A DNA stretch of 64,000 nt, taken from contig JAGIBL010000002.1 of assembly GCA_017744365.1 (NCBI GenBank), positions 248,001-312,000 on the forward strand, read 5' to 3'. Under the pieces are notes generated by a model that saw nothing but the letters and a program-made list of their open reading frames with translations, was not told the origin of the DNA and did no database searches. Positions 3,798 to 20,896 of the stretch are shown here, one piece after another. Numbering within the stretch: the stretch's first letter is position 1; each line of letters starts with the position of its first letter. The translations under genes were made by a program, and so were the position numbers. Source of the DNA: Nocardioidaceae bacterium. GTDB taxonomy: Bacteria > Actinomycetota > Actinomycetes > Propionibacteriales > Nocardioidaceae.

Positions 3798-3823
3798 AAC
3801 GGGTCCTTTCACGAAGGGTGAGG

Positions 3824-5754: not shown

Positions 5755-6752
5755 GCGGTCCTCCCGTGCACGATCTCGCCGGCGCGGTGGCAGGCGACCT
5801 GGCGGTCGTGGAACGGCATCGGCGAGGGCAGCACGGTCAGCAGCGGCTCCTCGTGCGCGCAGTGCTCGAGCGCGGCCGCGCAGCGCGGGTGGAACGGGCA
5901 GCCGCCCACCGGGTGGAACGGGCTCGCCGGCGTTCCCGGGATCGCGGTCAGGTCGCCCTCGTGCAGGTCGATGCGCGGCACCGAGTCGAGCAGCCCGCGG
6001 GTGTAGGGGTGCCGCGGGTCGGCGTACAGGTCGTCGACGCCGGCAACCTCGATCAGCCGGCCGGCGTACATCACCGCGACCCGGTGCGCGAAGCCGGCCA
6101 CCAGGCCGAGGTCGTGGGTGATGAGCAGTACCGCGGGCCCGCCGTCGGCGGAGATCTCCTCGATCAGCTGCATCACCTGCTCCTGCACCCGGACGTCGAG
6201 CGCGGTGGTCGGCTCGTCGGCGATGAGCACGGCCGGCTCGGCGACGATCGCCATCGCCAGGCAGACCCGCTGCCGCATCCCGCCGGAGAACTCGTGCGGG
6301 TAGGCGTCCATCCGGCGCGCGGCGTTCGGCACGCCGAGCCGGTCGAGCACGTCGCGGGCACGCTCGCGGGCCTCGCGCTTGGGCACCCCGCGGATCACCA
6401 GCGGCTCCATCACCTGGTCGCCGATCCGCTTGACCGGGTCGAGGGAGGAGAGCGGGTCCTGGAAGACCAGCCCGATGCCCTGGCCGCGCACCTCGCGCAG
6501 CCGCCGCTCGGACGCGGTGACCAGGTCGGCGCCGTCGAACTGGACGCTGCCGCCGACGGTCATCGCGTCGTCGAGCCGGATCAGCGACCGCGCGAAGACG
6601 GACTTGCCGGAGCCGGACTCGCCGACCAGCGCGACCCGCTCCCCGCGGCGCAGCTGCAGGCTGACGCCGTGCAGCAGCCGCACCGGTCCGTGCGCGGCGC
6701 GGACGTCGACGGTCAGGTCGCGGACGTCGAGCACAGGTGGAACCGTCGTCAT
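5751..6752 (-). CDS. dppD: Dipeptide/oligopeptide-type ABC transporter ATPase (DppD/OppD)
   Basis: A 333-residue ABC ATPase with Walker A GESGSGKS (44-51), FQDPLSSLDP after the Q-loop, signature EFSGGMRQR and Walker B VLIADEP. The C-terminal oligopeptide-transporter domain carries GGCPFHPRC and further Cys residues, characteristic of DppD/OppD. It is translationally coupled to both neighbours by ATGA overlaps. It supplies half of the nucleotide-binding pair of the importer encoded at 4909-10250. The substrate is more likely a small amide, ureide or glycoside-like compound of this catabolic operon than a general peptide, which is inference from context. Confidence 0.93.
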   Translation of the reverse strand: MTTVPPVLDVRDLTVDVRAAHGPVRLLHGVSLQLRRGERVALVGESGSGKSVFARSLIRLDDAMTVGGSVQFDGADLVTASERRLREVRGQGIGLVFQDPLSSLDPVKRIGDQVMEPLVIRGVPKREARERARDVLDRLGVPNAARRMDAYPHEFSGGMRQRVCLAMAIVAEPAVLIADEPTTALDVRVQEQVMQLIEEISADGGPAVLLITHDLGLVAGFAHRVAVMYAGRLIEVAGVDDLYADPRHPYTRGLLDSVPRIDLHEGDLTAIPGTPASPFHPVGGCPFHPRCAAALEHCAHEEPLLTVLPSPMPFHDRQVACHRAGEIVHGRTA

Positions 6753-7648
6753 CGAGGAGCCTCCCCCAGCGAGCTGCTGAGCATCGGGTCGAGGCGGGCA
6801 CGCAGCGCGTCCCCGGCCAGGCTGAACGCGGCGGAGGTGACCAGGATCGCCAGGCCCGGCGCCCCGGTGACCCACCACGCGTTGTTGAGGAACCGGCTGC
6901 CGGACTCGACCATCGCGCCCCACTCGGCACTGGGCGCCTGCGCGCCGGCGCCGATGAAGGAGAGGCTCGAGATGATGACGATCACGCCGCCGACGTCCAT
7001 CGCCGCCTTGACGTAGACGGTGTCGAGCGAGTTGGGCAGCACGTGCTTGGTGAGCAGCCGCCAGCGAGAGACGCCGAGCACCTGCGCGGCCTCCACGTGC
7101 GGGGAGACCATCACCCGGCGGATCTCCGAGCGCGCCAGCCGGGCGAAGCTCGGCCAGGACGCCAGGATCAGCGCGATCACCGCCGACTTCTGGCTCGGGC
7201 CGAGCGCCACCGCCAGGCCCAGTCCGGTCATCATCACCGGCAGCGACAGCACGACCTCGCAGATGCGCATGACGATCCCGTCCACCACCCGGCCGGCGGT
7301 GGCGGCGATCGCGGCCACGACCACGCCGATGGTGGCCGCCGCGAGCACCGTCACCACGGCCCCGATGATCGAGGGCCTGGCGCCGGCCAGCAGCCGGCTG
7401 AACAGGTCCCGGCCGGTGCCGTCGGTGCCGAGCCAGTGCTCGCCGCTGGGCGCCAGCAGGGTGTTGCGCTGGTCGACCAGGTACGGGTCGTGCGGGGCGA
7501 TCCAGGGCCCGACGACGGCCAGCACCAGCAGCACCAGCACGGCGCCGTAGGTGGCCAGCTCGGACCAGGTCATCCGCCGGCGCGCGGTGCGGCGGCGCAC
7601 CCGCGGCCGGATCCGGAGCCGCTCGGGACGTTGCAGCAGGTCGGTCAT
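6749..7648 (-). CDS. dppC: Dipeptide-type ABC transporter permease (DppC)
   Basis: A 299-residue inner-membrane permease. An Arg-rich cytoplasmic N-terminus (residues 1-26) precedes a first membrane helix (about 29-50), then the periplasmic segment HWLGTDGTGRDLFSRLL that is diagnostic of DppC. The cytoplasmic coupling loop is EAAQVLGVSRWRLL. About six membrane helices are visible. It pairs with DppB (7645-8685) to form the channel. Start and stop both overlap neighbours by four bases, so stoichiometric translation of the importer is expected. Confidence 0.92.
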   Translation of the reverse strand: MTDLLQRPERLRIRPRVRRRTARRRMTWSELATYGAVLVLLVLAVVGPWIAPHDPYLVDQRNTLLAPSGEHWLGTDGTGRDLFSRLLAGARPSIIGAVVTVLAAATIGVVVAAIAATAGRVVDGIVMRICEVVLSLPVMMTGLGLAVALGPSQKSAVIALILASWPSFARLARSEIRRVMVSPHVEAAQVLGVSRWRLLTKHVLPNSLDTVYVKAAMDVGGVIVIISSLSFIGAGAQAPSAEWGAMVESGSRFLNNAWWVTGAPGLAILVTSAAFSLAGDALRARLDPMLSSSLGEAPR

Positions 7649-8685
7649 GCCGGTGCTCCCACCTGGGCCGCGCGGATGCGCGGGTCGACGAGCAGCTGGA
7701 TCATGTCGGCCACCGCGCTCGCCACCGCGACCACGGTGCCGATGAACAGCACCAGGCCGAGCACCGCGAAGGTGTCCTTCTGGGTGACCGAGTCGGCCAG
7801 GTAGCTGCCCACCCCAGGCCGCCCGAAGATCGACTCCACCAGCACCGTGGCCGAGAACATCCAGCCGAACTGCAGAGCGGCGAAGGTGACGATCGGCCCG
7901 AGGCTGTTGGGCAGCGCGTGCCGCACGACGATCCGCGACTCCGAGGCCCCCTTGGCCCGGACCACGCTGGCGAAGTCGGACTGCAGGGTGCCGACGATCG
8001 AGGACCGGGTGATCCGGGAGACGAACCCGATGAACGGGATCGACAGCGTCACCGCCGGCAGCACCAGGTGCGCGACCGCGTCCCCGAAGCCGGACAGGTT
8101 GCCGGCCAGCAAGGCGTCCACCGTGGCCATCCCGGTCACCCGCGGGCTCTCCTTCCCGATGGTCTGGGAGCCGGAGAGCGGCAACAGGTCGAGCTTGAGG
8201 CCGACGAAGGACTGGAGCATCAGTCCCAGCCAGAACAGGGGCACCGCGCTGGCCAGGATCGCGACCCAGCGCACCACGTTGTCCGTCGTACGACGGAAGC
8301 GGGCCGCCGCGAGCATCCCGAGCGGGACCCCGACCAGGACGTCGAGCAGCATCGCCGAGCCGACCAGCTCGACCGAGGCCGGGATCCGCTCGGTGAGCTC
8401 CTCGCGCACCGGCCGGAAGGAGACGATCGAGGTGCCGAGGTCTCCGTGGGCGAGCCGGCCCAGGTAGTCGACGTACTGGACCGGGAGCGAGTGGTCCAGC
8501 CCGAGCCGGTGCCGTACCTGCTCGACCTGCGCCGGCGTCGCGGTGATGCCGGCCGCGCTCTGCGCCTCGTCGCCGGGAATCGCCTTGATCATCAGGAAGA
8601 CGAGGGTGGCGATGCCCCAGACGATGAAGGCGCAGGCGAGTGCGCGCTTCGCGGCGTACGTGGCTACACGCTGGTCCACGCTCAC
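7645..8685 (-). CDS. dppB: Dipeptide-type ABC transporter permease (DppB)
   Basis: A 346-residue membrane permease of the DppB/OppB type. One N-terminal helix (about 15-35) is followed by a long periplasmic loop containing LGLDHSLPVQY and HGDLGTSI, typical for the family. Five more helices carry the coupling loop VVRAKGASESRIVVRHALPN. The GTG start overlaps the stop of the binding-protein gene (GTGA). It forms the translocation pore with DppC. Confidence 0.92.
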   Translation of the reverse strand: MSVDQRVATYAAKRALACAFIVWGIATLVFLMIKAIPGDEAQSAAGITATPAQVEQVRHRLGLDHSLPVQYVDYLGRLAHGDLGTSIVSFRPVREELTERIPASVELVGSAMLLDVLVGVPLGMLAAARFRRTTDNVVRWVAILASAVPLFWLGLMLQSFVGLKLDLLPLSGSQTIGKESPRVTGMATVDALLAGNLSGFGDAVAHLVLPAVTLSIPFIGFVSRITRSSIVGTLQSDFASVVRAKGASESRIVVRHALPNSLGPIVTFAALQFGWMFSATVLVESIFGRPGVGSYLADSVTQKDTFAVLGLVLFIGTVVAVASAVADMIQLLVDPRIRAAQVGAPA

Positions 8686-10250
8686 CCCAGCCTGAGCGAC
8701 TGCGGCACCCAGCCGACGTGCGCCGGGAACTGCTTGAGACCGGTGAACTTGACCGTCGAGACCACCACGGTGGCGTGGTCGGCCATGTACATGACCACCG
8801 AGTCCTTGATGAGGATGTCCTGGGCCTGCTTGTACAGGTCGCAGGCCTGCTCCTGGTCACCGCTGGTGATCGCCTTCTCCACCAGCGCGTCGAACGCCGG
8901 GTTCTTGTACTGGGAGAAGTTGGTGCTGCTGCCGACGAACTGCGAGTCGTAGCGGGTGAACAGCATCGAGCCGGGGTCGGCGGTCGGCGGGTTGTCGAAG
9001 ATCAGCGCCATGTCCGGGGTGGAGTCGACCGACTTCAGGTCCTTGAGGTAGTCGGTGTACGTCGTGGCCTGGAGCTTGAGGTTGATGCCGATCTGCTTGA
9101 GGTTCGACTGCAGTGCGGTGGCCGCGTCCTGCTGCTCGCCGAAGATCGGCTGGAAGACCATCTTCAGCGACGAGCCGGAGACGCCGGCCTCGTCGACGAG
9201 CTGCTTGGCCTTGGCCAGGTCCATCGCCGGCGCGGACTCCGCGCGGCACGGCATGATCGAGGGCAGCGGGCCGGTGGCGATGTTGCCGTAGCCGCCGAGC
9301 AGGTGGTCCAGGTGCGCCTGGTAGTCGTAGGAGAGCCGGATCGCCTCGCGCACCTTCGGGTTCGCGGTGATCCCCTTCTGGGTGTTGAAGATGACGTAGG
9401 TGCCCGATGCCTTGGGCAGCTGGGTCAGCGTGAACTTCTTGTTGCCGGCGAACTGGGACAGGTCGGCCGGGTCGATGTTCTCGCTGGCCTGGGTGGTCCC
9501 GGCGAGCAGCTCGTCGCGCTGGGTGGAGGACTCGGCGATGGTGCGGTAGGTGATCTGCGCGATCGCGTCCTTGGTGGCCGGGTCCCAGTGGCCGTCGTAC
9601 CGCTTGAAGGCGATGGTCTGGGTGGGCACGTACTTGGCCAGCTCGTAGGGCCCGCTGCCCGCGTCGTTGTTCGCCAGCCAGGCCTGGCCCGCGTCGGCAC
9701 CGGCGTTCTTGGCGACGAGCTTGGAGTTGAGGATGTAGACGTGGCTCAGCGCGCCCACGAAGACGTTGGTCGGCTTGCTCAGGTTGATGGTCAGGGTGTG
9801 GTCGTCCTTGACCGTGGTCGAGTCGTACTCGGCGACCTGGGTGGCCACGCCGACGCCGAGCTGCTTGATCCGGTCCAGGGTGTACTTGACGTCCTCGGCG
9901 GTGACCTTGCTTCCGTCGTGGAAGGACGCGTCGCGCAGGGTGATGTCGATGGACTTGGCGTCCGGCGCGAGCTGGAAGCTCTGCGCGAGCCGGCCCTCGA
10001 GCTTGCCGTCGGCGGTGTAGTCGATGAGGTTGTCGTAGAGGGCGACGTCCACCTCGTCGATGACCGCGTCGGCCGCCAGCACCGGGTCGATGCTGCGCGG
10101 CGGCGCGGACGAGGAGATCGTGAGCGAGGCGCCGTTGGACGCGGTCGAGGTCGAGTCCGACCCGCACGCGGCCAGTGCCGGAGCCGCCACGAGGGCGAGG
10201 ACGACGGCCGCGATCCGGGCGGGTTGTGCACCTGCTTGCCAACGCGTCAT
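8682..10250 (-). CDS. ABC transporter substrate-binding lipoprotein (SBP_bac_5, DppA/OppA class)
   Basis: A 522-residue extracellular solute-binding protein and first gene of the minus-strand operon. The signal peptide ends in a lipobox APALAAC with the lipidated Cys at about 29, so it should be tethered outside the membrane. Family 5 features include SIDITLRDASFHDGSKVTAEDVKYTLDR (in two parts) and the usual length. I chose the ATG at 10250 because AGGAGG lies seven bases upstream; a longer in-frame start would place this ribosome site inside the gene. A GGTATACC palindrome at 10294-10301 sits just upstream, so repression by the GntR regulator at 17319 is likely. Confidence 0.93.
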   Translation of the reverse strand: MTRWQAGAQPARIAAVVLALVAAPALAACGSDSTSTASNGASLTISSSAPPRSIDPVLAADAVIDEVDVALYDNLIDYTADGKLEGRLAQSFQLAPDAKSIDITLRDASFHDGSKVTAEDVKYTLDRIKQLGVGVATQVAEYDSTTVKDDHTLTINLSKPTNVFVGALSHVYILNSKLVAKNAGADAGQAWLANNDAGSGPYELAKYVPTQTIAFKRYDGHWDPATKDAIAQITYRTIAESSTQRDELLAGTTQASENIDPADLSQFAGNKKFTLTQLPKASGTYVIFNTQKGITANPKVREAIRLSYDYQAHLDHLLGGYGNIATGPLPSIMPCRAESAPAMDLAKAKQLVDEAGVSGSSLKMVFQPIFGEQQDAATALQSNLKQIGINLKLQATTYTDYLKDLKSVDSTPDMALIFDNPPTADPGSMLFTRYDSQFVGSSTNFSQYKNPAFDALVEKAITSGDQEQACDLYKQAQDILIKDSVVMYMADHATVVVSTVKFTGLKQFPAHVGWVPQSLRLG

Positions 10251-10293: not shown

Positions 10294-10301
10294 GGTATAC
10301 C
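10294..10301. promoter_or_regulatory. GGTATACC palindrome O1 (putative GntR/FCD operator)
   Basis: The site reads TGGTATACCG on the plus strand. It lies 44 bases upstream of the binding-protein start (10250, minus) and 77 bases from a second copy (10371). The core matches the inverted-repeat style of GntR-type operators such as the B. subtilis GntR site (centre TGTATACA). It is probably the control site of the dpp-type operon. Binding by the regulator at 17319-17990 is inferred, not shown. Confidence 0.6.
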
Positions 10302-10325
10302 GAACTGGACTGCTTTGGCGCTAGT

Positions 10326-10359
10326 GTTTCAGAGGAAAAAGTTTCAGTGGTTAGATAAT
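10326..10359 (+). promoter_or_regulatory. Probable sigma-70-type promoter for the M24-amidase operon, with a 15-bp-spaced direct repeat
   Basis: This is an AT-rich island in GC-rich DNA. TTTCAG (10327-10332) and TTAGAT (10351-10356) are separated by 18 bases, and GATAAT at 10354-10359 is an alternative -10. GTTTCAG occurs at 10326 and again at 10341, followed by AGG and TGG, so this is a near-perfect direct repeat with a 15-base period. The operator copy at 10371 would fall on the start site or just after it, the classic position for repression. Promoter assignment is by eye only. Confidence 0.4.
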
Positions 10360-10370
10360 TGCCGTCAGTT

Positions 10371-10378
10371 GGTATACC
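10371..10378. promoter_or_regulatory. GGTATACC palindrome O2 (putative GntR/FCD operator)
   Basis: The site reads TTGGTATACCGC. It lies 39 bases upstream of the M24 gene start and just downstream of the best -10 candidate. Together with O1 it brackets the divergent promoter region between 10250 and 10418, an arrangement that would allow coordinated or looped repression of both directions. The link to the GntR regulator is inference. Confidence 0.6.
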
Positions 10379-10417
10379 GCCACGCGGCCACGAAACAGCG
10401 ATGAAGGAGTGCGATCC

Positions 10418-11674
10418 ATGAGCGTTCAGACCGTCGAGGAGAACCGGGGCGCGGACTGGTTCCCGACCCTCACCCTCGCCGAGCGCGACCGCCGCTACGC
10501 GCGGCTGCGGGCCCTGATGGACGAGCAGGGGCTGGACGGTCTGCTGGTCTCCGGCGGCGGCCGCGACCAGCTCGACCGGTACGTCACCAACGAGGGCACC
10601 CGCGGCTACGCGCTGCTCCCCCGCGAAGGCGAGCCGGTCAGCATGATCCGCAGCGGCAACACCGCGCTCGGCCGCTACGACGTGGTCGGCGAGGGCTTCG
10701 AGCGCTGGGTCGCCGACGAGCGGCTGGTCACGCGGGAGGCGCCGCTCTCCTCGGTGCTCGCCGAGAAGGGACTGGCCACCGGCCGGGTCGGCGTGGTCGG
10801 GCTGAGCAGCCGGGCGCCGGCGAGCATGGCCGGCACCATCCCCTACAACACCTGGGCGCGCATCCTCGCCGACCTGCCCGGCGCCACCTTCCTCGACGTC
10901 GCCGGCGACTTCGAGAAGGTGATGGTGGTGCACAGCGCCGAGGAGCTGGACATGATCCGCAAGTCCGCGCAGATCGGCGAGCGCGCCTGCGCGGCGATGA
11001 TCGCGGCCGCCGGGGTCGGGGTCCGCGAGTCCGAGCTGGTCGCCACCGGGATGCGCGAGATCTTCGCCGGCGGCGGGATGACCTTCCCCGGCCCGGAGCG
11101 GTGCGGCCCCGAGCGGCTCGGCTGGTCCGGCGCCGACTGGCTCTGGATGGGCGGCGGCTCCCGGGTGATGGAGAAGGGCGACACCTTCGGTGCGGAGCTG
11201 TTCACCTTCTACGGCGGCTTCGAGTCCCAGCAGCAGATCGACATCGCCCTCGGCGAGCTGGACGAGGACCACCGCTTCCTCGACGAGGTCGCGGTGGCGT
11301 CGTACCGGGCAGGGCTGGCGGCGCTGCGACCCGGGCTCACCTTCGCCGAGCTGTGCGAGGTGATGGAGGCGCCGCTGCGCGAGGCGGACTGCTGGAACAT
11401 GGGCCCGGTGGTGCAGACCGTCTCGCCGGTGATCTTCAACAGCGCCACCCACGTCGGGCTGGACTCCCAGCCCGGCCTGGCCGGCATCCCGCACCCGCCG
11501 ACCACGCCGCGCGACGGCGACTTCGTCATCGAGCCCGGCGTCGCGTTCGCCTTCGAGCCGAACGCCTGCCGGGACAAGAAGCGGGTCTGCGTCGGCGGCA
11601 CCGTGATCGTCACCGAGGACGGCTGCGAGGAGCTGAACACGCTGAGCAACGCGATGAACGTCGTCCCGGCGTGA
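10418..11674 (+). CDS. M24-fold creatinase-like hydrolase with degenerate metal site
   Basis: A 418-residue protein with the creatinase N-terminal domain (about 20-160) and the pita-bread M24 domain (about 165-410). Aligned by eye to aminopeptidase P, the first Asp ligand is Glu (GAELFTFYGGF) and the second Asp is Gln (FESQQQ). The His region reads NSATHVGL, and the last Glu (RIEDTV) is Gly (VCVGGTVIV); only the Glu in FEPN remains. Creatinase likewise lacks metal and hydrolyses the amidino C-N bond of creatine, so a metal-free C-N hydrolase is a better guess than a peptidase. The ATG at 10418 has AAGGAG eight bases upstream. It is coupled to the amidase by a GTGA overlap. Confidence 0.85.
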   Translation: MSVQTVEENRGADWFPTLTLAERDRRYARLRALMDEQGLDGLLVSGGGRDQLDRYVTNEGTRGYALLPREGEPVSMIRSGNTALGRYDVVGEGFERWVADERLVTREAPLSSVLAEKGLATGRVGVVGLSSRAPASMAGTIPYNTWARILADLPGATFLDVAGDFEKVMVVHSAEELDMIRKSAQIGERACAAMIAAAGVGVRESELVATGMREIFAGGGMTFPGPERCGPERLGWSGADWLWMGGGSRVMEKGDTFGAELFTFYGGFESQQQIDIALGELDEDHRFLDEVAVASYRAGLAALRPGLTFAELCEVMEAPLREADCWNMGPVVQTVSPVIFNSATHVGLDSQPGLAGIPHPPTTPRDGDFVIEPGVAFAFEPNACRDKKRVCVGGTVIVTEDGCEELNTLSNAMNVVPA

Positions 11675-12978
11675 GCGACGTCCTCCTCGGGGTCGGCGCC
11701 GCCCGCGGTGCCGTCGCCCGCGGCGAGGCCTCGGCGCTCGAGCTGGCCGACGAGGCGCTCGCCCGGGTGGCCGCCCGCAACGACGAGCTGGCCGCGTTCG
11801 TCGAGGTCGACCCGGCCTTGACGCACCGGTGGGCACGCAGCGCCGGCGGGGGCGGCTTGCTGGCCGGGGTGCCGGTGGCGGTCAAGGACATGGTCGACGT
11901 GCGCGGCCTGCACACCCGGGCGGGCAGCTCGTTCCTCGGCGCACAGCCGGCGCTGCAGGACGCTGCGGTGGTGCGCCGGCTGCGCAAGGCCGGGGCGGTG
12001 GTGGTCGGCAAGACGGCCACCACCGAGTTCGCCTGCGGGCCGCACCTGACCGCGAACTCGCCGGTCCCCCGCAACCCGTACGACGCCGCCCGCACCCCGG
12101 GCGGGTCCAGCGGCGGCTCGGCCGTCGCGGTCGCCGCCGGGATGGTGCCGGTCGCGGTCGGCACCGACACCGCCGCCTCGATCCGGCAGCCGTCCGGATT
12201 CTGCGGGCTGGCCGGGCTGCGGCCGACCGCCGGGGTCGTCTCCGTCGACGGAGTGGTGCCGCTGGCCCCGGCCTTCGACACCGTCGGGCCGATCGCGCGG
12301 ACCGTCGGCGACGTCGCGATCCTCTTCGAGGTGATGTCGGGCCGCCGGATGCGCCCGCCGCTCGACGAGCGGCCCTGGACCGTCGGCGTGGTGGACGTGA
12401 CCTCGTGGGCCGCGCCCGAGGCCGAGGTGGTCACGCTCCACGCCCGGGCCCTGGACCGGTTGCGCCGCGACGGCTTGCGGCTGGTAACGGTCCGGCTGCC
12501 CGCCGGCGGCGAGTCGTTCGACGCGGCGATGCTGCTGCTGGCGCGGCAGGCCTGGCGCACGCACCGCGCCTGGTTCGCGCGGCACGGTGGCCGGTACGAC
12601 GCCCAGGTGCACCGGTTCCTCTCCTCCGGTCGCGATGCCGAGCGCGCCGACGTCAGGGCGGCCCGCACGGTCGCCGAGTCGTTCTGCCTCGGGGTGGCCC
12701 GGGCGCTGTCCCGGGTGGACGCGCTGGTGCTCCCGGTGGCGCCCACCCAGCCCTGGCCGCTGACGATGAAGCCGGTGCCCGGGCAGGAGCCACCCGGCCG
12801 GCACGGGCTGCGCTACACCGCCCCCTGGATGGTGACCCGGCGACCGGTGCTCGCGGTGCCGGCGGGCGTCTCGTCCGCGGGACTGCCGTTCGGGCTGCAG
12901 CTGGTCGGCGAGCTGAACCACGAGGAGACCCTGCTGGCGCTGGGCTCCTGGGTCGAGCAGCGGCTGGCGCCGTCATGA
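11671..12978 (+). CDS. Amidase signature family hydrolase
   Basis: A 435-residue amidase signature enzyme. The Lys-cisSer-Ser triad is visible as K72 (VAVKDMVD), S146 (TPGGSSGGSA) and S170 (TDTAASIRQPSGFCG). The usual GGS before the nucleophile is AAS here. Such enzymes hydrolyse amides, carbamates or ureido groups to an acid plus ammonia. The GTG start at 11671 overlaps the M24 stop and the stop overlaps the ATG of the next gene, so all three are co-translated from the promoter at about 10326-10359. It may act on the M24 product to free ammonia or a carbamoyl compound; this is inference. Confidence 0.9.
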   Translation: MSDVLLGVGAARGAVARGEASALELADEALARVAARNDELAAFVEVDPALTHRWARSAGGGGLLAGVPVAVKDMVDVRGLHTRAGSSFLGAQPALQDAAVVRRLRKAGAVVVGKTATTEFACGPHLTANSPVPRNPYDAARTPGGSSGGSAVAVAAGMVPVAVGTDTAASIRQPSGFCGLAGLRPTAGVVSVDGVVPLAPAFDTVGPIARTVGDVAILFEVMSGRRMRPPLDERPWTVGVVDVTSWAAPEAEVVTLHARALDRLRRDGLRLVTVRLPAGGESFDAAMLLLARQAWRTHRAWFARHGGRYDAQVHRFLSSGRDAERADVRAARTVAESFCLGVARALSRVDALVLPVAPTQPWPLTMKPVPGQEPPGRHGLRYTAPWMVTRRPVLAVPAGVSSAGLPFGLQLVGELNHEETLLALGSWVEQRLAPS

Positions 12979-13535
12979 CGGCCGCCGTCCTGCTGGTCGG
13001 CCTGCAGAACGACTACGCCCACCCCGCGGGTGCGAACAGCCGGGTCCGCGATCTCCGGGTGCCCGACCTCGAGGCGCTCGTCGCCGCGGTCAACCGGCTC
13101 ACCGCCCTGGCCCGCGCGAACGGCTGGCCGGTGTTCTGGTCGCAGGTGTCGTGGGCCGACGAGGACGCCTCCGGGCTGCTCGGCCGCCGCCGCCCGCACC
13201 TGCGCCAGGCCCTGCGCACGGGCACCTGGGGAGCCGCTCTCCTCGACGACCTGGTCGTCCTGGAGAGCGACCGGCGCATCCAGGCCACCCGCTTCAGCGC
13301 CTTCCACGGCACGTCTCTCGTCACCCAGCTGGCCGGCACCGAGCGCCTCTACGTCGGCGGCGTCGGCACCGACTACCTGGTCGAGTCCACCGTCCGCGAC
13401 GCCTTCCAGCACGACCTCGACGTGATCGTCGTCGCCGACGCCGTCCAGGGCTACAGCGACCGCGCCCACCACCGCGCCCTCGAAGCCATGTCCTCCGTCT
13501 TCGCCACGATCCTCAATTCCCCCGACCTGGCGTAG
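12975..13535 (+). CDS. Isochorismatase-fold protein lacking the catalytic triad (probable pseudoenzyme)
   Basis: A 186-residue protein with the cysteine-hydrolase fold: N-terminal strand VLLVGLQNDY, the segment TRFSAFHGT and the region YVGGVGTDYLVESTVRDAF followed by VIVVADAVQGY. The family uses Asp-Lys-Cys. Here the Asp position of DxQND is G9, the Lys position before RFSAF is A104, and the Cys in TD.CV is L135. I checked these codons in the nucleotide sequence. All three losses with an otherwise intact fold suggest a non-catalytic, ligand-binding or partner-binding role. The ATG overlaps the amidase stop (ATGA), so it is made with the amidase. Confidence 0.85.
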   Translation: MTAAVLLVGLQNDYAHPAGANSRVRDLRVPDLEALVAAVNRLTALARANGWPVFWSQVSWADEDASGLLGRRRPHLRQALRTGTWGAALLDDLVVLESDRRIQATRFSAFHGTSLVTQLAGTERLYVGGVGTDYLVESTVRDAFQHDLDVIVVADAVQGYSDRAHHRALEAMSSVFATILNSPDLA

Positions 13536-13540
13536 AAGGA

Positions 13541-13632
13541 CACGTGTTCACGCTGACCTGGCGCAAAGGTGCACGTGTTGACGCTGACCTGGCGCAAAGG
13601 CGCACGTGTTCACGCTGACCTGGCGCAAAAGT
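13541..13632 (+). repeat. 31-bp tandem repeat, three copies
   Basis: Copies start at 13541, 13572 and 13603, each opening CACGTGTT(C/G)ACGCTGACC and followed by TGGCGCAAA. The array begins five bases after the isochorismatase-fold stop. Copies differ by one or two bases, and the third merges into the hairpin below. There are no spacers, so it is not CRISPR. Each unit contains the CACGTG hexamer. Function unknown. Confidence 0.9.
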
Positions 13633-13668
13633 GCGTGTGACTACACGCACTTTTGCGCCAGGTCAGCG
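13613..13668. terminator. Perfect 26-bp inverted repeat, 4-base loop; probable bidirectional terminator or mobile repeat
   Basis: The left arm 13613-13638 and right arm 13643-13668 are exact reverse complements, with loop GACT. It lies between two converging genes (stops at 13535 plus and 13679 minus), where a bidirectional terminator would sit. The central AAAAG/CTTTT gives short A/T tracts but no long U tail. The arm continues the sequence of the 31-bp tandem repeats, so it more likely arose as an intergenic repeat family than as a plain terminator. Confidence 0.7.
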
Positions 13669-13678
13669 TTCAGGTGGG

Positions 13679-15103
13679 TCAGGTGAGGCGGGTGGCGAGG
13701 GCGGTCAGGGCGGAGGTGAAGGCTTCCATCGGGGGGTGGGTGATGCCGGCGCCGATCATCCCGACGCCCGGGTGCTTGTGGGCGATGGCGGTGTTGATGA
13801 CCGGGAGCACGCCCGTCTCCACCACCTTGCGCACGTCGATCCCGGTCGGCACGCCGCGGAAGTCCAGCCCCGGCACGGTCACGTTCGGGTTCTCCGCGAC
13901 CGTGATCGCGGCCATCTCCTCGGTGGAGGCACGCGCGTCCTCGACGGTGCCGCCGACCAGGGCGACGATGGCCGGTGCGGCCGCCATGGCGAACCCGCCG
14001 ACGCCGTAGGTCTCGGTGATCGCCGAGTCGCCGATGTCCAGGCCCGAGTCCTCCGGCTTGTAGCCGGCCAGCATCGGCCCGACCACCTTCTGGGCCGGCC
14101 CGGTGAACCAGGTGTTCCCGGGCAGCCCGGCGACCCGGATGCCGAACTCGACGCCGTTGCGGCACATCGTGGTCACCACGGTGGAGTCCTCGATGCCGTG
14201 GGCCGCGTCCAGGGCCGCCTTCGCCATCGCCATCCAGGTCGGCCCGGAGAAGTAGTCCGAGCTGGCCACGAAGTCGAAGATCTCCTTCTTCTCCGCGACC
14301 GAGAACCGGGTCTGCAGCAGGCCCGGCGCAAGCGCCTGGAACAGCAGCGTGGTCCCGGCGATGTTCCGGTTGTGCGCCTCGTCGCCCATGTGCAGCGCCT
14401 GGGAGAGCAGCAGCCGCAGGTCGACCGGCCCGCCGATCTCGACGGCCTCGGCCAGCGCCGGCCCGAGCACGTCGCGCATCCAGCGCAGCCTCTCGATCAC
14501 CGAGGCGTCGTTGGCCCCCATCCGCAGGTTCTTGGCGACCTGCTCGGACAGGTTCGTGTAGGCCCGGTTGCCGTAGGTCTGGTTCTCGACCACGTGCACG
14601 TACATCGAGGCCGAGGTGACTCCGGCCATCGACCCGACCGCGTCGTGCTCATGGCAGGGCGCGAACCGGATCGCCCCCGAGCGCGCCACCCGGTCGGCCT
14701 CCTCGACGTCGGCGGCGAGGCCCTCGAACACCAGCGCGCCGGTGACCGAGCCGCGCATCGTGCCGGACATCCGCTCGTAGGAGATCGGCGGCCCGGCGTG
14801 CAGGATCGTCTCCCTGGTCATCCCGGGAATCGCCTCGAGGGCCGGCGCGAAGCCGACCAGCACCGGGCGGCTGGACACGATCCGCTCGACGGCGAGGGCG
14901 TTGGCGCGCTCGATCCGCTCGCGCACGGCCGGCTCCTCCAGCGCGCTCAGCGCGGCGACCACCTCGAGCCGGCCACCGCCGGGCGGGGTCCAGTCCACCG
15001 AGGTCACGTCGACGCCCTGGGCAGCCAGGTCGTCGTGGAACATCCGCAGTCCCACGTTCAGCACCGACAGCTCGCCGGAGAAGAGCTCGCTCGTCTTGTT
15101 CAC
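13679..15103 (-). CDS. allG: DUF1116 protein, AllG (YlbE)-like subunit of oxamate carbamoyltransferase
   Basis: A 474-residue DUF1116 protein. In E. coli the homologue YlbE/AllG works with FdrA/AllF and YlbF/AllH as oxamate carbamoyltransferase, which phosphorolyses oxalurate (N-carbamoyl oxamate type chemistry) to oxamate and carbamoyl phosphate. Recognisable conserved stretches are VDWTPPGGG near the N-terminus, HMGDEAHNRN in the middle and AITVAENPNVTVPG near the C-terminus. The GTG start at 15103 overlaps the fdrA stop (GTGA) with GGAGG upstream. The call rests on family recognition plus the neighbours fdrA, carbamate kinase and DUF2877. The true carbamoyl donor here may not be oxalurate. 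Confidence 0.85.
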   Translation of the reverse strand: MNKTSELFSGELSVLNVGLRMFHDDLAAQGVDVTSVDWTPPGGGRLEVVAALSALEEPAVRERIERANALAVERIVSSRPVLVGFAPALEAIPGMTRETILHAGPPISYERMSGTMRGSVTGALVFEGLAADVEEADRVARSGAIRFAPCHEHDAVGSMAGVTSASMYVHVVENQTYGNRAYTNLSEQVAKNLRMGANDASVIERLRWMRDVLGPALAEAVEIGGPVDLRLLLSQALHMGDEAHNRNIAGTTLLFQALAPGLLQTRFSVAEKKEIFDFVASSDYFSGPTWMAMAKAALDAAHGIEDSTVVTTMCRNGVEFGIRVAGLPGNTWFTGPAQKVVGPMLAGYKPEDSGLDIGDSAITETYGVGGFAMAAAPAIVALVGGTVEDARASTEEMAAITVAENPNVTVPGLDFRGVPTGIDVRKVVETGVLPVINTAIAHKHPGVGMIGAGITHPPMEAFTSALTALATRLT

Positions 15104-16650
15104 CGGCCGGCCTCCTTCGCCACGAACTCGCGGGCCAGCAGGCCGGTGTTGGTGCTGCTGCTCGCGATGGTCACGCCGGCCGCCTCGAGCGCGCGCACCT
15201 GGTCGGCGTACGCCGGCTGGTCGAGGTCCGTGCCGAGCACGTAGCCGAGGATCTCCAGGTGCCGGCCGGCCTCGGCCGCGATCCGCTTCGCCTCGGTGAT
15301 CGCCGGCAGGGTGACACCGACCGGGTCCGGGTGCGCGCCGTACCCGAGGATGAAGTCGAGCGCGATCACGCCCACCTCCGGGTCGGCGGCCTCGGCGACG
15401 ATCCGGGCGTTGCGCAGCGTCGGGTCGATCATCGGGTGCGGCCGGCCGTCGGTGAGCTCGTCGTCGCCGAAGTCGAGGAAGGTGTGCCCGCGGCTGGGCT
15501 CGAGCGCGCCGATCCGCCGGCGCGGGTCCTGGCCGACGTTCGACCAGACGTCGTCGTACGTCGCCAGCGCCGCGTACATCGCCTCGTCGCAGAGGGTGCC
15601 GCCGCAGAACAGCCCGCGCACGTAGCGCTGCTCGTCGCCGAGCTTGCCGCGCACCTTCTCGATGAGCGGCCAGTTCAGGGCATGGAGGTCGAGGGCGGAC
15701 TCGTCGGCGCCCGCGAGCAGCACCGCCTGCAGGGCCGCCGGCTTGGTGCCGGACGCGAACACCGCGCCGGCCTTCTCGACGGCCGCCTCGGACCCGCCGA
15801 GGAAGCAGACCACCACCGGCTTGCCCGCCCGGGCGACCTCCGCGAGCACGGCCTCCTCGACCTCGGGGGCGGGCGGCTTGGAGACCAGCACGATCACCTC
15901 GGTGGCCGGGTCAGCGGCCAGCGCGCGCAGCCCGTCGATCATCATCACGCCGCCGACCTCGGCGGACAGGTCACGGCCGCCGGTACCGATCAGCTGGGAG
16001 ACGCCGCCGCCGAAGTCGTGGATCCGGACGCTGACCTCCTGGGCGCCGGTGCCGGAGGCGGCGACGATGCCGATGGCTCCCCGTCGTACGGCGTTGCCGA
16101 AGCAGAGCGCGACCCCGTTGATGATCGCGGTGCCGCAGTCCGGCCCCATCATCAGCAGGCCGCGCTCGTGGGCGAGCCGCTTGAGCGCGACCTCCTCGGC
16201 GACCGGGACGTTGTCGCTGAACAGCAGCACGTGCAGGTCCCGCTCCAGGGCCTTGCGGGCCTCGCGCGCGGCGTAGGCGCCGTTGACCGCGACCACCGCC
16301 AGGTTGGCCTCCGGGACCGCAGCGACGGCCGCGTCCAGGGTCCGCGGCGCCCGCGCCTGCTCGTCGCGCTCGGGGCGGCGCCGCTCCAGCAGCGCCTCGA
16401 CGGCCGCCAGGGTGGCGTCGGCGTCGGTGCCGTCCGCGACGGTGACCACGAGCATCAGGTCGCCGGGCCCGGCGGCCTCGAGCGCGGGTGCACCCAGGCC
16501 GAGGTCGGCCAGCACCCGCTTGTTCATCTCGGTGGCCATCGCGACGAACGCCTCGGTGACGCCGTCGAGCTCGTTGGCCCGGGTGGAGACGGCCATCAGC
16601 GTCACCGAGTCGACGTAGGTGTTGGCCCGGACCGCGACCCGGGTGGTCAT
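15100..16650 (-). CDS. fdrA: FdrA (AllF)-like acyl-CoA synthetase-fold carbamoyltransferase subunit
   Basis: A 516-residue protein of the FdrA family, built like a fused succinyl-CoA synthetase. An N-terminal CoA-binding-like part contains LMMGPDCGTAIINGVALCFG and IGIVAASGTGAQE, and a ligase-CoA part contains LFCGGTLCDE and LDFILGYGAHPDP. FdrA is the largest subunit of the oxamate carbamoyltransferase of E. coli anaerobic allantoin degradation. The ATG at 16650 overlaps the ankyrin-gene stop, and its own stop overlaps the DUF1116 start, so the three are one translational unit. The substrate is inferred from family and context. Confidence 0.88.
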   Translation of the reverse strand: MTTRVAVRANTYVDSVTLMAVSTRANELDGVTEAFVAMATEMNKRVLADLGLGAPALEAAGPGDLMLVVTVADGTDADATLAAVEALLERRRPERDEQARAPRTLDAAVAAVPEANLAVVAVNGAYAAREARKALERDLHVLLFSDNVPVAEEVALKRLAHERGLLMMGPDCGTAIINGVALCFGNAVRRGAIGIVAASGTGAQEVSVRIHDFGGGVSQLIGTGGRDLSAEVGGVMMIDGLRALAADPATEVIVLVSKPPAPEVEEAVLAEVARAGKPVVVCFLGGSEAAVEKAGAVFASGTKPAALQAVLLAGADESALDLHALNWPLIEKVRGKLGDEQRYVRGLFCGGTLCDEAMYAALATYDDVWSNVGQDPRRRIGALEPSRGHTFLDFGDDELTDGRPHPMIDPTLRNARIVAEAADPEVGVIALDFILGYGAHPDPVGVTLPAITEAKRIAAEAGRHLEILGYVLGTDLDQPAYADQVRALEAAGVTIASSSTNTGLLAREFVAKEAGR

Positions 16651-17240
16651 CGCAGCAGCTCGGCGATCTCGTGGAAGCCCTTCTCCAGGGCCAGGTCCAG
16701 CGGCTTCGTGCCCCACTTGTCGGTCATCCCCGGGTCGGCGCCGTGCTCCAGCAGCAGCCGTACGACGCGCTGCCGGACCGGGCCTCCGTCGCCGAGGATG
16801 ATCGCCTCGATCAGCGCGGTCCAGCCGACCGCGTTGGTGTGGTTGACGTTGATGTCGGTGGCGGTGAGCAGGTACTCGACCACGTCGGCGAAGCCCTTCT
16901 CCGCGGCCGGGGTGAGCCCGTTGCCGCCGAACCGGGTCAGCCGGGTCAGGTCGGCCCCGGACTCGACCATCAGCCGCACCAGCGAGAGGTCGCCGGTGAG
17001 GCAGCCGTGCAGGAACGGGTTCAGGCTGGTCTCGTCCTGGAGGTCGAGATCGGCGCCCGCCTCGGCCAGGTGCCGGACCACGTCCAGGTGCCCGTTCATC
17101 GCGGCCAGCAGCACCGCCGTCCGGCCCTGCCTGGTGACGCTGTCGATGGGCACGCCCGCGGCCAGCTCGGCGGTCACGGCGTCGAGATCGCCGCTCTCCG
17201 CTGCCTTGAGGTACACGGCCGGATCACAGACTCCGCCCAC
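16647..17240 (-). CDS. Ankyrin-repeat protein
   Basis: About 197 residues made almost wholly of ankyrin repeats. Five units are visible, with signatures GRTAVLLAAMNGHLDVVRHL, LNPFLHGCLTGDLSLVRLM, GLTPAAEKGFADVVEYLL, GWTALIEAI and PLDLALEKGFHEIAELL. Ankyrin repeats bind protein partners. The position as first gene of the ankyrin-fdrA-DUF1116 unit suggests it scaffolds or regulates that complex, which is inference. AGGAGG lies five bases before the GTG at 17240, and I prefer this start to the TTG at 17243. The GGTATACC operator at 17299 is in its promoter. Confidence 0.85.
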   Translation of the reverse strand: MGGVCDPAVYLKAAESGDLDAVTAELAAGVPIDSVTRQGRTAVLLAAMNGHLDVVRHLAEAGADLDLQDETSLNPFLHGCLTGDLSLVRLMVESGADLTRLTRFGGNGLTPAAEKGFADVVEYLLTATDINVNHTNAVGWTALIEAIILGDGGPVRQRVVRLLLEHGADPGMTDKWGTKPLDLALEKGFHEIAELLR

Positions 17241-17298
17241 CAATGCCTCCTCGACGAGGATGAGGGTTCGCTTCGGACGAGCCGCACCCTAGCACATT

Positions 17299-17306
17299 GG
17301 TATACC
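17299..17306. promoter_or_regulatory. GGTATACC palindrome O3 (putative GntR/FCD operator) in the ankyrin-fdrA promoter
   Basis: The site reads TTGGTATACCAC. On the minus strand it falls within the 18-base spacer between a weak -35 (CTGGTT, complement 17310-17315) and -10 (TAGGGT, complement 17286-17291). A bound repressor would block polymerase. The gap between the GntR stop (17319) and the ankyrin start (17240) therefore holds its own promoter, so the fdrA unit need not depend on read-through from gntR. Confidence 0.55.
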
Positions 17307-17318
17307 ACCAACCAGGAG

Positions 17319-17990
17319 CTACAGAGCGTCCTCGTCGGCGTAGAGCAGGTCCAGGCAGATCCGGCGGCTGGTGCGCACGTGCGCGAGCGCGAGTGACTCG
17401 GCCTTCTCCGCGTCGCCGCTGGCGATCGCCCGGTACAGCGCGACGTGCTCGCGGTGCAGCAGCTCGGGCTGGTCGTTCTGCCGCAGCAGCCAGTGCAGCC
17501 GCCCCTCGAGCGGCTCGAGCATGGAGGCGAGCAGGTCGTTGTGCGCGATCGCGGTGATCCGGTCGTGGAAGGCCTGGTTGCAGCGGCCCAGCGCGGAGAC
17601 GTCCTCGGCGCGCAGCGCGGTGGCCGCCTCGGCCATCACCTCACCGAGCTCGTCGAGCTCCTCCCGGGTGGCGCGGGCGGTCGCCAGCCGGACCGCGAGC
17701 ACCTCCAGGGCCTCCCGTACGTCGAACAGCTCCACGGCATCGTGGCGGGACAGCTCGGTGACCACGACGCCCTTGCGGGGCACCTCGGTGACGAACCCCT
17801 CGCCCTTGAGCAGGTTGAGGGCGTCACGCACCGGGACCCGGGAGACGCCGAGCTGGTCGGCGAGGGTGCGCTCGACGAGACGCGCCCCCGGGTTCAGCTC
17901 GCCGCTGATGATCCGCTCCCGGAGCACGTCGGCGACCTGCTCGCGCAGCGGCCGGTGCGCGCTGCCCAGATCGACGTTCTCGGTGGTCAC
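17319..17990 (-). CDS. GntR-family transcriptional regulator, FCD (FadR) subfamily
   Basis: A 223-residue regulator with an N-terminal winged helix (about 13-75; LADQLGVSRVPVRDALNLL is the recognition region) and a C-terminal all-helical FCD ligand domain (about 85-210). His residues in NQAFHD, HREHV and LAHV match the metal-binding positions seen in many FCD domains, which bind small carboxylic acids. The start is GTG at 17990. It lies between carbamate kinase (37-base gap) and the ankyrin gene. Four GGTATACC palindromes in nearby promoters are its likely operators, and derepression by a pathway carboxylate is expected from the family. Confidence 0.92.
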   Translation of the reverse strand: MTTENVDLGSAHRPLREQVADVLRERIISGELNPGARLVERTLADQLGVSRVPVRDALNLLKGEGFVTEVPRKGVVVTELSRHDAVELFDVREALEVLAVRLATARATREELDELGEVMAEAATALRAEDVSALGRCNQAFHDRITAIAHNDLLASMLEPLEGRLHWLLRQNDQPELLHREHVALYRAIASGDAEKAESLALAHVRTSRRICLDLLYADEDAL

Positions 17991-18027
17991 GCGGCAAAGA
18001 CTAGTGCTGCGCCACCCCGAAGCGACT

Positions 18028-18957
18028 TCACGCGAAGACGATTCCGCCCGGCACGTCCGCGGTGACCTCGGTGCCGACGCGGCGCGCGAGCAGGTCGTCG
18101 AGGCGGTCCAGGGGGCCGATCAGCGCCCGTCCGCCGGCCTTCGCCACCCGCACCGCGGCGTCCACCTTGGGCTGCATCGAGCCTTCTGCGAAAGGGATCT
18201 CGGCGATCGCCTCGGGGGTCGCGGTGAGGATGTCGCGCTGCAGCGGGGTGCCCCAGTCCTGGCTGACGTAGTCGCCGTCGGTGAGCATCACCAGCAGGTC
18301 GGCGCCGAGGTCGGCGGTCAGGGCGGCACTGGCCAGGTCCTTGTCCACCACCGCCTGCATCCCGGTCTGCACGCCGCCCGCGGAGACGCGGACCGGGACG
18401 CCGCCGCCGCCCACGCAGACGACCAGCCGGCCGTGGTCGAGCAGCAGCCGGACCAGGTCGGCCTGGACCACCCGGATCGGCGCCGGCGAGGGCACCACCC
18501 GGCGGAACGCCTGCCCGTCACGGGCGATGGTCCAGCGGTACTCGGCCGCCGCCTCGGCCGCGTCCTGGGCCGAGTACGTCGGCCCGATCAGCTTGGTCGG
18601 CCGGTCGAAGGCGGGGTCGCGCTCGTCGACCTCGGTCGTGGTCAGCACCGCCGCGACCTCGCGCTCGCCGGCGAGCGCGTTGGTCAGCTCCTGCTGCACG
18701 ACGTAGCCGATCATCCCCTGGGTCTCGGCGCCGAGGATGTCGAGCGGATAGGCCGCCACGTCGGAGTAGGCCAGGTTCTGCAGGGCGAGCAACCCGACCT
18801 GGGGACCGTTGCCGTGGGTGATGACGAGCTCGTGCTCGCGGGCCAGGCCGGCCAGGGCCACGCAGGTGGCGCGGACGTTGGCGCGCAGGTGGTCGGCCGT
18901 CATCGGCTCACCCCGCCGGGCCAGTGCGTTGCCCCCCAGTGCCACCACGATGCGCAT
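18028..18957 (-). CDS. arcC: Carbamate kinase (catabolic, ArcC/AllK type)
   Basis: A 309-residue amino-acid-kinase-fold enzyme with VVALGGNAL at the N-terminus, HGNGPQVGLLALQ (about 48-60) and VCVGGGGVPV. It converts carbamoyl phosphate plus ADP to ATP, CO2 and ammonia, the energy-yielding last step after carbamoyl-phosphate release by FdrA/DUF1116/DUF2877. The ATG at 18957 has GGAGGGG about eight bases upstream. It is divergent from the DUF2877 gene across a 72-base gap with one operator, and is followed by gntR, so the regulator may be autoregulated. Confidence 0.95.
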   Translation of the reverse strand: MRIVVALGGNALARRGEPMTADHLRANVRATCVALAGLAREHELVITHGNGPQVGLLALQNLAYSDVAAYPLDILGAETQGMIGYVVQQELTNALAGEREVAAVLTTTEVDERDPAFDRPTKLIGPTYSAQDAAEAAAEYRWTIARDGQAFRRVVPSPAPIRVVQADLVRLLLDHGRLVVCVGGGGVPVRVSAGGVQTGMQAVVDKDLASAALTADLGADLLVMLTDGDYVSQDWGTPLQRDILTATPEAIAEIPFAEGSMQPKVDAAVRVAKAGGRALIGPLDRLDDLLARRVGTEVTADVPGGIVFA

Positions 18958-18995
18958 CCGCCAGCCCCTCCCGGAGTGATTCTCGACAGCGGAAT

Positions 18996-19003
18996 GGTAT
19001 ACC
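18996..19003. promoter_or_regulatory. GGTATACC palindrome O4 (putative GntR/FCD operator), the most symmetric copy
   Basis: The site is a perfect 12-bp palindrome ATGGTATACCAT (18994-19005). It is centred in the 72-base gap between the carbamate kinase gene (minus, start 18957) and the DUF2877 gene (plus, start 19030). A single site here could control both divergent transcripts, which together with fdrA and DUF1116 make the complete putative enzyme set. Confidence 0.65.
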
Positions 19004-19029: not shown

Positions 19030-19815
19030 GTGCTCGACGCTCTCAGCGCCGACGCCCGGCTGCTCGACGCGCCGCCCGGGCCGTTGCGGGTGCACAGCGC
19101 CTTCGAGCGCAGCGCCAACCTGCTCACCGGCGACGGACGGCTCGTCGCGGTCACCGCACGGACCTTCGACGACGCGCCCTGGAGCATCCGGGCCGACCTG
19201 GAACGGTTCCCCACCCTCACGGCCGGCGCGACCGGCTGCCTCGACGCCGACCGGCTCCGGCTCCCCGGGCTGACCCTGCGCGTCTCCGGCGCCCGCCCCT
19301 GGCGACCCGCGCCGCTCGCGCCGTTCACCGGGGCCGGCCGGCTGGGCGCGCTGGTCGAGGAGCTCGGCCGGCGCGGCGGCGCGTTGCCGTCGCCCGGGGA
19401 GAAAGGCCCTGTCGAACAGGCCGTTGCGGACCGGCTCGCGGAGGGGATCGCCGCGCTCCGGCAGGACCTCGACCTGGCGGTGCGCCTGCTCGCCGGCACC
19501 GGCACCGGCCTGACTCCCGCCGGCGACGACGTGCTGGCCGGGTTCGGTCTCGCCGCGGCGATCCCCGCGAGCCCGGTCCACCCGATGCGCGACCGGCTCG
19601 CCGCCGCCTACCGCGACCTGCGCGGTCGCACCGCCCTGCTCTCCCTGGTCACGATGAACGAGGCCGTCCAGGGCCGGGCCCGGCAGCGGATCCTCGACGT
19701 GGCCGACGCGCTGCCGTTCCCGGGTCGGCTGGAGGCGGCGGTCGCCCGGGCCGTCGAGATCGGGCACACCTCGGGGACCGACCTGCTCTGCGGCCTGGTC
19801 GCCGGGCTCGGGTAG
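19030..19815 (+). CDS. allH: DUF2877 protein, AllH (YlbF)-like subunit of oxamate carbamoyltransferase
   Basis: A 261-residue DUF2877 protein. The family hallmark is seen as GTGLTPAGDDVLAGFGL, close to the usual LTPSGDD, followed by a C-terminal GHTSGTDLLCGLVAGL. In E. coli the homologue is the third oxamate carbamoyltransferase subunit. Here it is split off on the opposite strand but shares the divergent operator with carbamate kinase. I chose the GTG at 19030 because GGAGGAGG lies five bases upstream; a longer reading frame would run through the operator. Confidence 0.85.
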   Translation: MLDALSADARLLDAPPGPLRVHSAFERSANLLTGDGRLVAVTARTFDDAPWSIRADLERFPTLTAGATGCLDADRLRLPGLTLRVSGARPWRPAPLAPFTGAGRLGALVEELGRRGGALPSPGEKGPVEQAVADRLAEGIAALRQDLDLAVRLLAGTGTGLTPAGDDVLAGFGLAAAIPASPVHPMRDRLAAAYRDLRGRTALLSLVTMNEAVQGRARQRILDVADALPFPGRLEAAVARAVEIGHTSGTDLLCGLVAGLG

Positions 19816-20510: not shown

Positions 20511-20896
20511 GCGCCGGTCCCCGCGAGGTAGGCCCGCCACCCGCCGTACGACGAGATCTCGCGCTGTCCCGCGGCCAGGTCCGGGGTGCAGAGCACGCCG
20601 GGCACGACGCTGCCGTCCTCGAGGGTCACCTCGCCGACGTACAGGCCGTCGGGCTCGTTCGCGACGACGTGGTCGAGGGTGTCCTGGTCCAGCTCGTAGA
20701 GCTCACCGGCGACGGCGACGCCCGCGGACGCGTCCTCGTACATGCCGGGGTGCACGTCGCCGATCGAGAAGACCCGGTACCGCGGCGCCGTCCGGGTCTC
20801 GCGCACCAGCGGCGCACCGCGCAGGTTCGGGTGCAGCTCCAGGCCACGCATCAGCGTGCCGTTGACGAACAACAGCATGGGTTCGGTTCTCCTCAT
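20507..20896 (-). CDS. Gamma-glutamylcyclotransferase-like protein similar to the AtzF (allophanate hydrolase) C-terminal domain
   Basis: A 129-residue protein starting MRRTEPMLLFVNGTLMRG, then YRVFSIGDVHPGM, GELYELD and ending SSYGGWRAYLAG. The NGTLMRG and HPGM pattern is that of the C-terminal domain of allophanate hydrolase (AtzF), a GGCT-like barrel, here free-standing. In allophanate hydrolase that domain decarboxylates the intermediate N-carboxycarbamate. The ATG at 20896 overlaps the GGT stop; Met7 (20878) is an alternative with GAGGAG about ten bases upstream. Its place after gamma-glutamyltransferase would also fit a true glutamyl cyclotransferase. Confidence 0.75.
   Translation of the reverse strand: MRRTEPMLLFVNGTLMRGLELHPNLRGAPLVRETRTAPRYRVFSIGDVHPGMYEDASAGVAVAGELYELDQDTLDHVVANEPDGLYVGEVTLEDGSVVPGVLCTPDLAAGQREISSYGGWRAYLAGTGA

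Follow-up and report, generated by a model that had tools for sequence, protein, structure and literature searches.

A short palindrome before import and carbamoyl genes of a Nocardioidaceae bacterium points to a GntR/FCD regulon with YahDEFG-like enzymes

A stretch of 64,000 nucleotides from a Nocardioidaceae bacterium (assembly GCA_017744365.1, contig JAGIBL010000002.1, positions 248,001 to 312,000; here called the window) raises the question of why a short palindrome, GGTATACC, recurs in front of genes for a dipeptide-type importer, for several hydrolases and for subunits of a putative carbamoyl-transferring enzyme. Comparison of sequences leads us to propose, with good confidence, that the palindromes act as operators of a GntR/FCD regulator that represses an import, cleavage and carbamoyl regulon. 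The regulon is well supported by such comparison, and the protein that binds is most likely the regulator encoded at 17319-17990, among the sites.

Exact copies of GGTATACC begin at 10294, 10371, 17299 and 18996, precisely as an earlier note on this DNA had reported, and the window holds these four and no further one. Site 1 (10294..10301) and site 2 (10371..10378), both with the core set in TGGTATACCG, lie between divergent operons. Site 1 is 43 nt from the start of the minus-strand SBP5-Dpp operon (SBP5, solute-binding protein of family 5; start chosen at ATG 10250, with AGGAGG ahead), and site 2 is 39 nt from the start (10418) of the plus-strand M24-amidase-isochorismatase operon; by these distances each operon has one site. 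Site 3 (17299..17306, reading TGGTATACCA) falls 12 nt beyond the GntR stop codon and about 55 nt before the start of the minus-strand ankyrin-AllF-AllG genes. Site 4 (18996..19003), with its core enclosed in the palindrome ATGGTATACCAT as had been described, occupies the gap between the divergent genes for carbamate kinase (minus strand, 38 nt away) and an AllH/DUF2877 protein (plus strand, 26 nt away). All four copies are intergenic and in promoter gaps, with distances counted on the sequence. The claim that such a sequence should be rare by chance stood as well: dinucleotide shuffles give an expectation of 0.02 per window, and four copies were reached in 0 of 100 shuffles. Its description as an AT-rich 8-mer did not, as only half of its bases are A or T. 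The hexamer GTATAC is found at the same four places of the window only and, among the 256 palindromic 8-mers, none but GGTATACC both occurs there twice or more and exceeds its Markov expectation by a factor of more than eight. The gaps carrying the sites have a G+C content of 49-62%, compared with 73% for the window.

The 4.76-Mb genome contains six copies of GGTATACC, four of them within 8.7 kb. Of the control palindromes, GGATATCC has five genomic copies, each on a different contig, and CCTATAGG and CCATATGG have one apiece. Given the five copies of GGATATCC, copy number alone is weak proof; what is extraordinary is the clustering of four of the six copies. The longer form TGGTATACCA occurs exactly three times in the genome and, with at most one mismatch, at 12 places (the pattern read backwards, at nine). 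Five of these 12 retain GGTATACC, namely the four window sites and one beside a paralogous GntR/FCD gene, so the genome scan proposed in the earlier note came out in its favor. The other seven read TGGTCTACCA or TGGTAGACCA, in which the center is broken; five fall within open frames that show coding signal, and at two no frame was called by the coding filter. The fifth genomic GGTATACC, about 220 kb away, stands between the paralogous gene and a divergent amidohydrolase gene. The sixth (C14:25381), between a gene of the major facilitator superfamily and recA, is without the outer T and A and was treated as chance rather than as an operator. The compact GntR regulon of the earlier note is supported by the clustering of the sites and by the conserved promoter placement described below, but a perfect site that far away, at a paralog, makes it less compact than claimed.

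Conserved placement is the second line of evidence. Relatives of the AllG protein turned up at 80 loci, 15 of them actinobacterial by title, of which one (L125, 51% identical) falls outside the clade. Among the 14 clade loci, L099 and L115 end before the gap in question; the remaining 11 with the gap, together with L135, from a genome of the same taxonomic order, make 12. In 12 of these 12 other actinobacterial loci TGGTATACCA, with at most one mismatch, precedes the divergent carbamate kinase gene, an outcome that answers the comparison of orthologous promoters proposed earlier; the site lies in the carbamate kinase/AllH gap in ten and in the carbamate kinase/ankyrin gap in two. It is site 4 that is kept in this way. 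Locus L117, not among the 12, has no site and another layout, with carbamate kinase between two AllFG pairs on one strand. Over 13 rows, including the window, the mean for the ten core positions is 1.92 bits compared with 0.47 and 0.28 in the flanks, the rows being aligned on the site so that the core is high by construction. Six genomes of 2.9-10.8 Mb contain 9 to 40 one-mismatch matches to TGGTATACCA each, hence very roughly 0.001 expected per 200-bp gap. The window carbamate kinase is 82-84% identical to the kinases of Streptomyces and kin. A second AllFG clade, for which 17 loci (AllG 45-50%) were fetched from 88 AllG genomes, including the second copy of this genome, has the site beside its AllFG genes in none of the 17 (the upstream side of L148 is outside its stretch); in L147 a site lies 4 kb from them.

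A related cluster in Microbacterium sp. SYP-A9085 (NZ_WJII01000002.1; stretches L113 and L157) brings most of the same genes together. Carbamate kinase and AllH-AllF-AllG are there with TGGTATACTA between them, and next come a Dpp-type importer, the closest homologue of the window regulator (58%), an ankyrin protein (64%) and an AllF-like C-terminal piece, followed by a block of xylose-isomerase-like, FAD/BBE, xylose-isomerase-like and M24 genes. The hexamer GTATAC is present only three times in the 17 kb of L157: once between importer and regulator, once ahead of the ankyrin gene and once immediately ahead of the isomerase-oxidase-M24 block. In each of these degenerate sites one half-site is still good (TGGTATACAG or its mirror). 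No match to the window amidase or isochorismatase was found in the Microbacterium stretches. The AllF-like gene beside the ankyrin gene (L157, 5411-6442) matches AllF only in its C-terminal part (query 211-538), and about 8 kb from it there is a complete AllHFG set.

Which protein would read these sites? The earlier note had a GntR/FCD regulator encoded among them, and the 223-aa product of 17319..17990 (minus strand) indeed scores above the Pfam cut-offs for both GntR (1.6e-19) and FCD (2.1e-26). Its gene lies 37 nt behind that of carbamate kinase, on the same strand and downstream of site 4, and is probably cotranscribed with it. We compared 41 GntR/FCD proteins from AllG loci together with relatives and sorted them by the recognition helix: 32 have an arginine after the glutamate of helix 2 and V, L or I after SR (Arg type), eight have N, T, D or E after the glutamate and then SRN (SRN type), and one fits neither. 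The window regulator, with LVER...SRVP, is of the Arg type; this arginine we take, from the alignment, to be the equivalent of FadR Arg35. A site lies within 400 bp of the regulator's own gene in 26 of the 32 Arg-type cases (window regulator and paralog counted) and in none of the eight of SRN type, near which no shared A/T-containing palindrome stood out.

The arrangement resembles that of Atu1419, an FCD/GntR regulator of the VanR group from Agrobacterium fabrum. In its description (PMC7797058), Arg45 contacts bases of a 10-bp palindromic operator, ATGTATACAT, with a GTATAC core, and several operator copies are found in its own and the neighboring promoter. The outer two bases are AT...AT there and TG...CA here, and the target genes are others (PMC7797058). 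The general GntR operator signature quoted in that paper, (N)yGT(N)xAC(N)y with its GT...AC, is the form that TGGTATACC(A/G) takes in the gaps before the four gene blocks (PMC7797058). A literature search returned no paper that pairs GGTATACC with GntR, although motifs drawn as logos, split by spaces or given in supplements would escape it; a search for TTGGTATACCAA with a regulator gave nothing related, and among the matches listed for a broader motif search no title was that of a GntR paper.

Several observations weigh against the proposal. The backward pattern is at least as frequent as TGGTATACCA at one mismatch in all six genomes (18 vs 16 in one, 84 vs 40 in another), so that there is no general enrichment and the argument rests on position; counting alone was for this reason, and because of the five copies of the control palindrome, rejected as proof, and clustering and conserved position carry the case. 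Outside Actinomycetota any GGTATACC is seen in 10 of 65 loci only; the link to the palindrome is thus lineage-bound and not universal. Within Actinomycetota, Sinomonas (L091) has the site and no GntR match within the stretch examined. As to the helix types, six of the 32 Arg-type regulators are without a site within 400 bp, the nearest relative, from L113 (58% identical, with the degenerate sites), among them. Two of the eight SRN-type regulators have a bare GTATAC nearby, and seven of the eight form a single clade in the regulator tree; the contrast between the types is therefore a correlation over few lineages, stronger by its Fisher value than it deserves. A scan for sigma-70 promoters and terminators gave no consensus promoter and no terminator, and operator geometry is predicted only. 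Among the 80 AllG loci an M24 gene match is confined to L113, an amidase to L083 and L130, and an isochorismatase appears in none; these enzymes are therefore not general partners, and cleavage enzymes vary.

The last point on this side concerns the paralog (C8:37620-38234), which is 41% identical to the window regulator, shares its helix type and has a perfect TGGTATACCA within ATGGTATACCAT about 118 nt from its gene (region C8:37620-38403; L049 7585-9614), so that either protein could bind. The sites might then be true operators of which the paralog is the main binder, or which both proteins share. Its divergent neighbor encodes an AtzC/cytosine-deaminase-like amidohydrolase, 33% identical to YahJ, whose closest relative in the PDB is N-isopropylammelide isopropylaminohydrolase; relatives of this protein or of YahJ (E up to 1e-15) occur in 20 of the 80 AllG loci, which lends the idea some weight. 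Beyond the pair lie ATP-binding cassette transporter genes (family-3 binding protein and permease). It is the window regulator, however, that stands among the four sites; two degenerate sites flank its closest homologue, which belongs to the related cluster of Microbacterium, and the Microbacterium stretches searched yielded no relative of the amidohydrolase. We consider a main role of the paralog, or sites shared by both proteins, unlikely.

What the regulator of the window would control depends on the identity of the carbamoyl genes. Pfam assigns the product of 13679..15103 (minus strand) to AllG/DUF1116, NCBIfam that of 15100..16716 (minus strand) to FdrA/AllF (PRK06091, above cut-off) and Pfam that of 19030..19815 (plus strand) to AllH/DUF2877. 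Direct comparison with E. coli K-12 gives another picture: the first protein is 67% identical to YahG and 46% to YlbE/AllG, the second 60% to YahF and 37% to FdrA/AllF, and for the third the better score is that with YahE (83 bits; 28% over 98% of the query), YlbF giving 51 bits (32% over 52%). The adjoining ankyrin-repeat protein (16647..17243, minus strand, by Pfam; the true start may be GTG 17240) is 55% identical to YahD, and 46 of 72 clade loci have an ankyrin gene close to AllG. Only carbamate kinase (309 aa, 18028..18957, minus strand; NCBIfam PRK12354 above cut-off) departs from the Yah type, being nearer YbcF (49%) than YahI (39%). After this comparison AllFGH/allantoin was dropped as the main label. 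The genes resemble E. coli yahDEFG rather than the proven oxamate transcarbamylase; what the earlier note called carbamoyl salvage is thus something that we infer. The family name oxamate carbamoyltransferase attached to AllG and AllH is likely a misannotation for this clade.

The E. coli yahDEFG-yahI-yahJ genes likewise group ankyrin, DUF2877, FdrA-like, DUF1116 and carbamate-kinase-like members. A LysR gene (yahB) is nearby in E. coli, and the annotation of that 14-kb stretch lists no gene of the GntR, M24, amidase-signature, isochorismatase or Dpp kind. By term search, the yah genes are absent from the main text of the oxamate-enzyme paper (PMC11326118) and of the ybcF paper (PMC9843812), and a literature search on yahG, yahF, yahD and yahI gave, by title and the beginning of the abstract, nothing on what these genes do.

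It could be asked whether the carbamoyl part is simply the ordinary allantoin/oxamate (AllFGH) system, the rest being unrelated neighbors that came to share a regulator by drift. E. coli AllFGH and YbcF belong to the same protein families, and in the report on oxamate transcarbamylase the transfer of the carbamoyl group to give carbamoyl phosphate is the model (PMC11326118); in E. coli the genes are reported to be regulated by AllS and ArcA (PMC12535856). The Pfam and NCBIfam names, the kinase nearer YbcF and the lack of conservation of the amidase and isochorismatase genes with the cluster would fit this explanation. We regard it as improbable, given that AllF and AllG here are only 37-46% identical to the E. 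coli subunits and far closer to YahF and YahG, that a YahD-like ankyrin gene adjoins them, and that importer, M24, isomerase-like and oxidase genes are together in the Microbacterium cluster. The genome also has a separate AllF-AllG-AllH set of the other clade at C7:596474-597118 (L134; AllG 49%), which is without the palindrome.

That a rare 8-mer fell by accident into AT-richer promoter gaps is scarcely credible: the G+C content of those gaps, the copy number of GGATATCC, near that of GGTATACC, and the frequency of the backward pattern speak for accident, but four copies in 8.7 kb, the same promoter marked in all 12 other loci and controls that are scattered or single do not.

The remaining genes that would belong to the GntR/FCD regulon are those for import and cleavage. 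The family-5 solute-binding protein (8682..10250, minus strand; Pfam SBP_bac_5) heads the Dpp-type permeases and ATPases (4909..8685, minus strand; DppB 7645-8685, DppC 6749-7648, DppD 5751-6923, DppF 4909-5754). A probable distal part of the same operon (1268..5104, minus strand) comprises a xylose-isomerase-like protein (3824-5104), an FAD/BBE oxidase (about 2331-3800) and a second xylose-isomerase-like protein (1268-2341). We extend the predicted regulon to 1268 because these genes follow Dpp on the minus strand and their relatives are grouped in Microbacterium. On the plus strand are a creatinase/prolidase-like hydrolase of the M24 family (10418..11674, by Pfam; best solved relative creatine amidinohydrolase, E 3.6e-9), an amidase-signature enzyme (11671..12978, by Pfam on the longer frame; under the cut-off of all 25 NCBIfam families among the matches listed) and an isochorismatase-fold hydrolase nearest RutB (12975..13535, by Pfam on the longer frame). 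The M24 gene was found at E up to 1e-60 in three of 394 genomes of the class, the present one counted; the two others (39% and 37% identical) have no other window genes and no GTATAC-centered site in 19 kb. The solved relatives, creatinase, RutB and, for the distant amidohydrolase, AtzC, point to ureido or amide chemistry and disagree in detail. As to the claim of one system for import, amide cleavage and carbamoyl salvage, the import and carbamoyl genes are fronted by sites, but the amidase and isochorismatase are not conserved with the cluster elsewhere.

FCD regulators commonly block promoters near the starts of their targets. The sites, their rarity and conserved placement and the gene identities are what we read on the DNA; from here on we infer binding, repression, autoregulation, effector, substrate and reactions. 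A dimer of the regulator would bind the 10-bp palindrome TGGTATACC(A/G) and repress four promoter regions. Made from the carbamate kinase operon, it would sit near the starts of its targets and block them, its own among them. A metabolite of the pathway, probably a small carboxylate bound by the FCD domain, would release it. Four blocks would respond: the Dpp-type importer with the two xylose-isomerase-like proteins and the FAD/BBE oxidase; the M24 hydrolase, amidase and isochorismatase-fold hydrolase; the ankyrin protein with the YahF- and YahG-like subunits; and a last one in which carbamate kinase and the regulator itself are joined by the divergent AllH/DUF2877 gene. A compound with an amide or ureido group may be imported and trimmed to an N-carbamoyl intermediate, whose carbamoyl group the YahEFG-like enzyme would move to phosphate, carbamate kinase then recovering ATP. 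Import, hydrolysis, carbamoyl transfer and ATP recovery would thereby be switched on together.

The regulatory mechanism is ordinary, since local regulons of GntR/FCD proteins abound; it is the targets that give the finding its value, for the regulon would join an orphan Yah-type family of carbamoyl enzymes to definite import and cleavage enzymes. This family is present in Bacillota, Actinomycetota and Proteobacteria, E. coli yahDEFG included. We suggest tentatively, as an idea somewhat short of probable, that the ankyrin-linked YahDEFG-type enzyme stands at the center of a catabolic route, so far undescribed, that breaks down an imported amide or ureido compound, with its gene set defined by the GntR regulon. 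If so, the full set would consist of the importer, the FAD/BBE oxidase, the two isomerase-like proteins, the M24, amidase and isochorismatase-fold enzymes, carbamate kinase and the distant AtzC-/cytosine-deaminase-like amidohydrolase; the ankyrin protein would act as a partner dedicated to the YahDEFG-type enzyme, and the same logic would account for the orphan yah genes of E. coli. The short operator would be a handle for seeking further members of the pathway.

Three minor observations were made. Ankyrin genes also occur beside related GntR/FCD regulators in L136 (7982-10070) and L144 (7715-9521), with no AllG relative seen within those stretches. Outside the region marked by the palindromes, at 20507-22668, a protein that matches the allophanate hydrolase C-terminal domain is encoded beside a gamma-glutamyltranspeptidase. 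Between the convergent isochorismatase-fold and AllG genes, 13524-13669 contains three direct repeats spaced at 31 nt, as well as a perfect inverted repeat of 27 nt whose loop measures 4 nt. The repeat unit CGCTGACCTGGCGCAAA has 98 genomic matches at up to one mismatch (50 forward, 48 reverse), compared with 0 for the reversed control, and its copies are often inverted pairs, as in a REP-like (repetitive extragenic palindromic) element.

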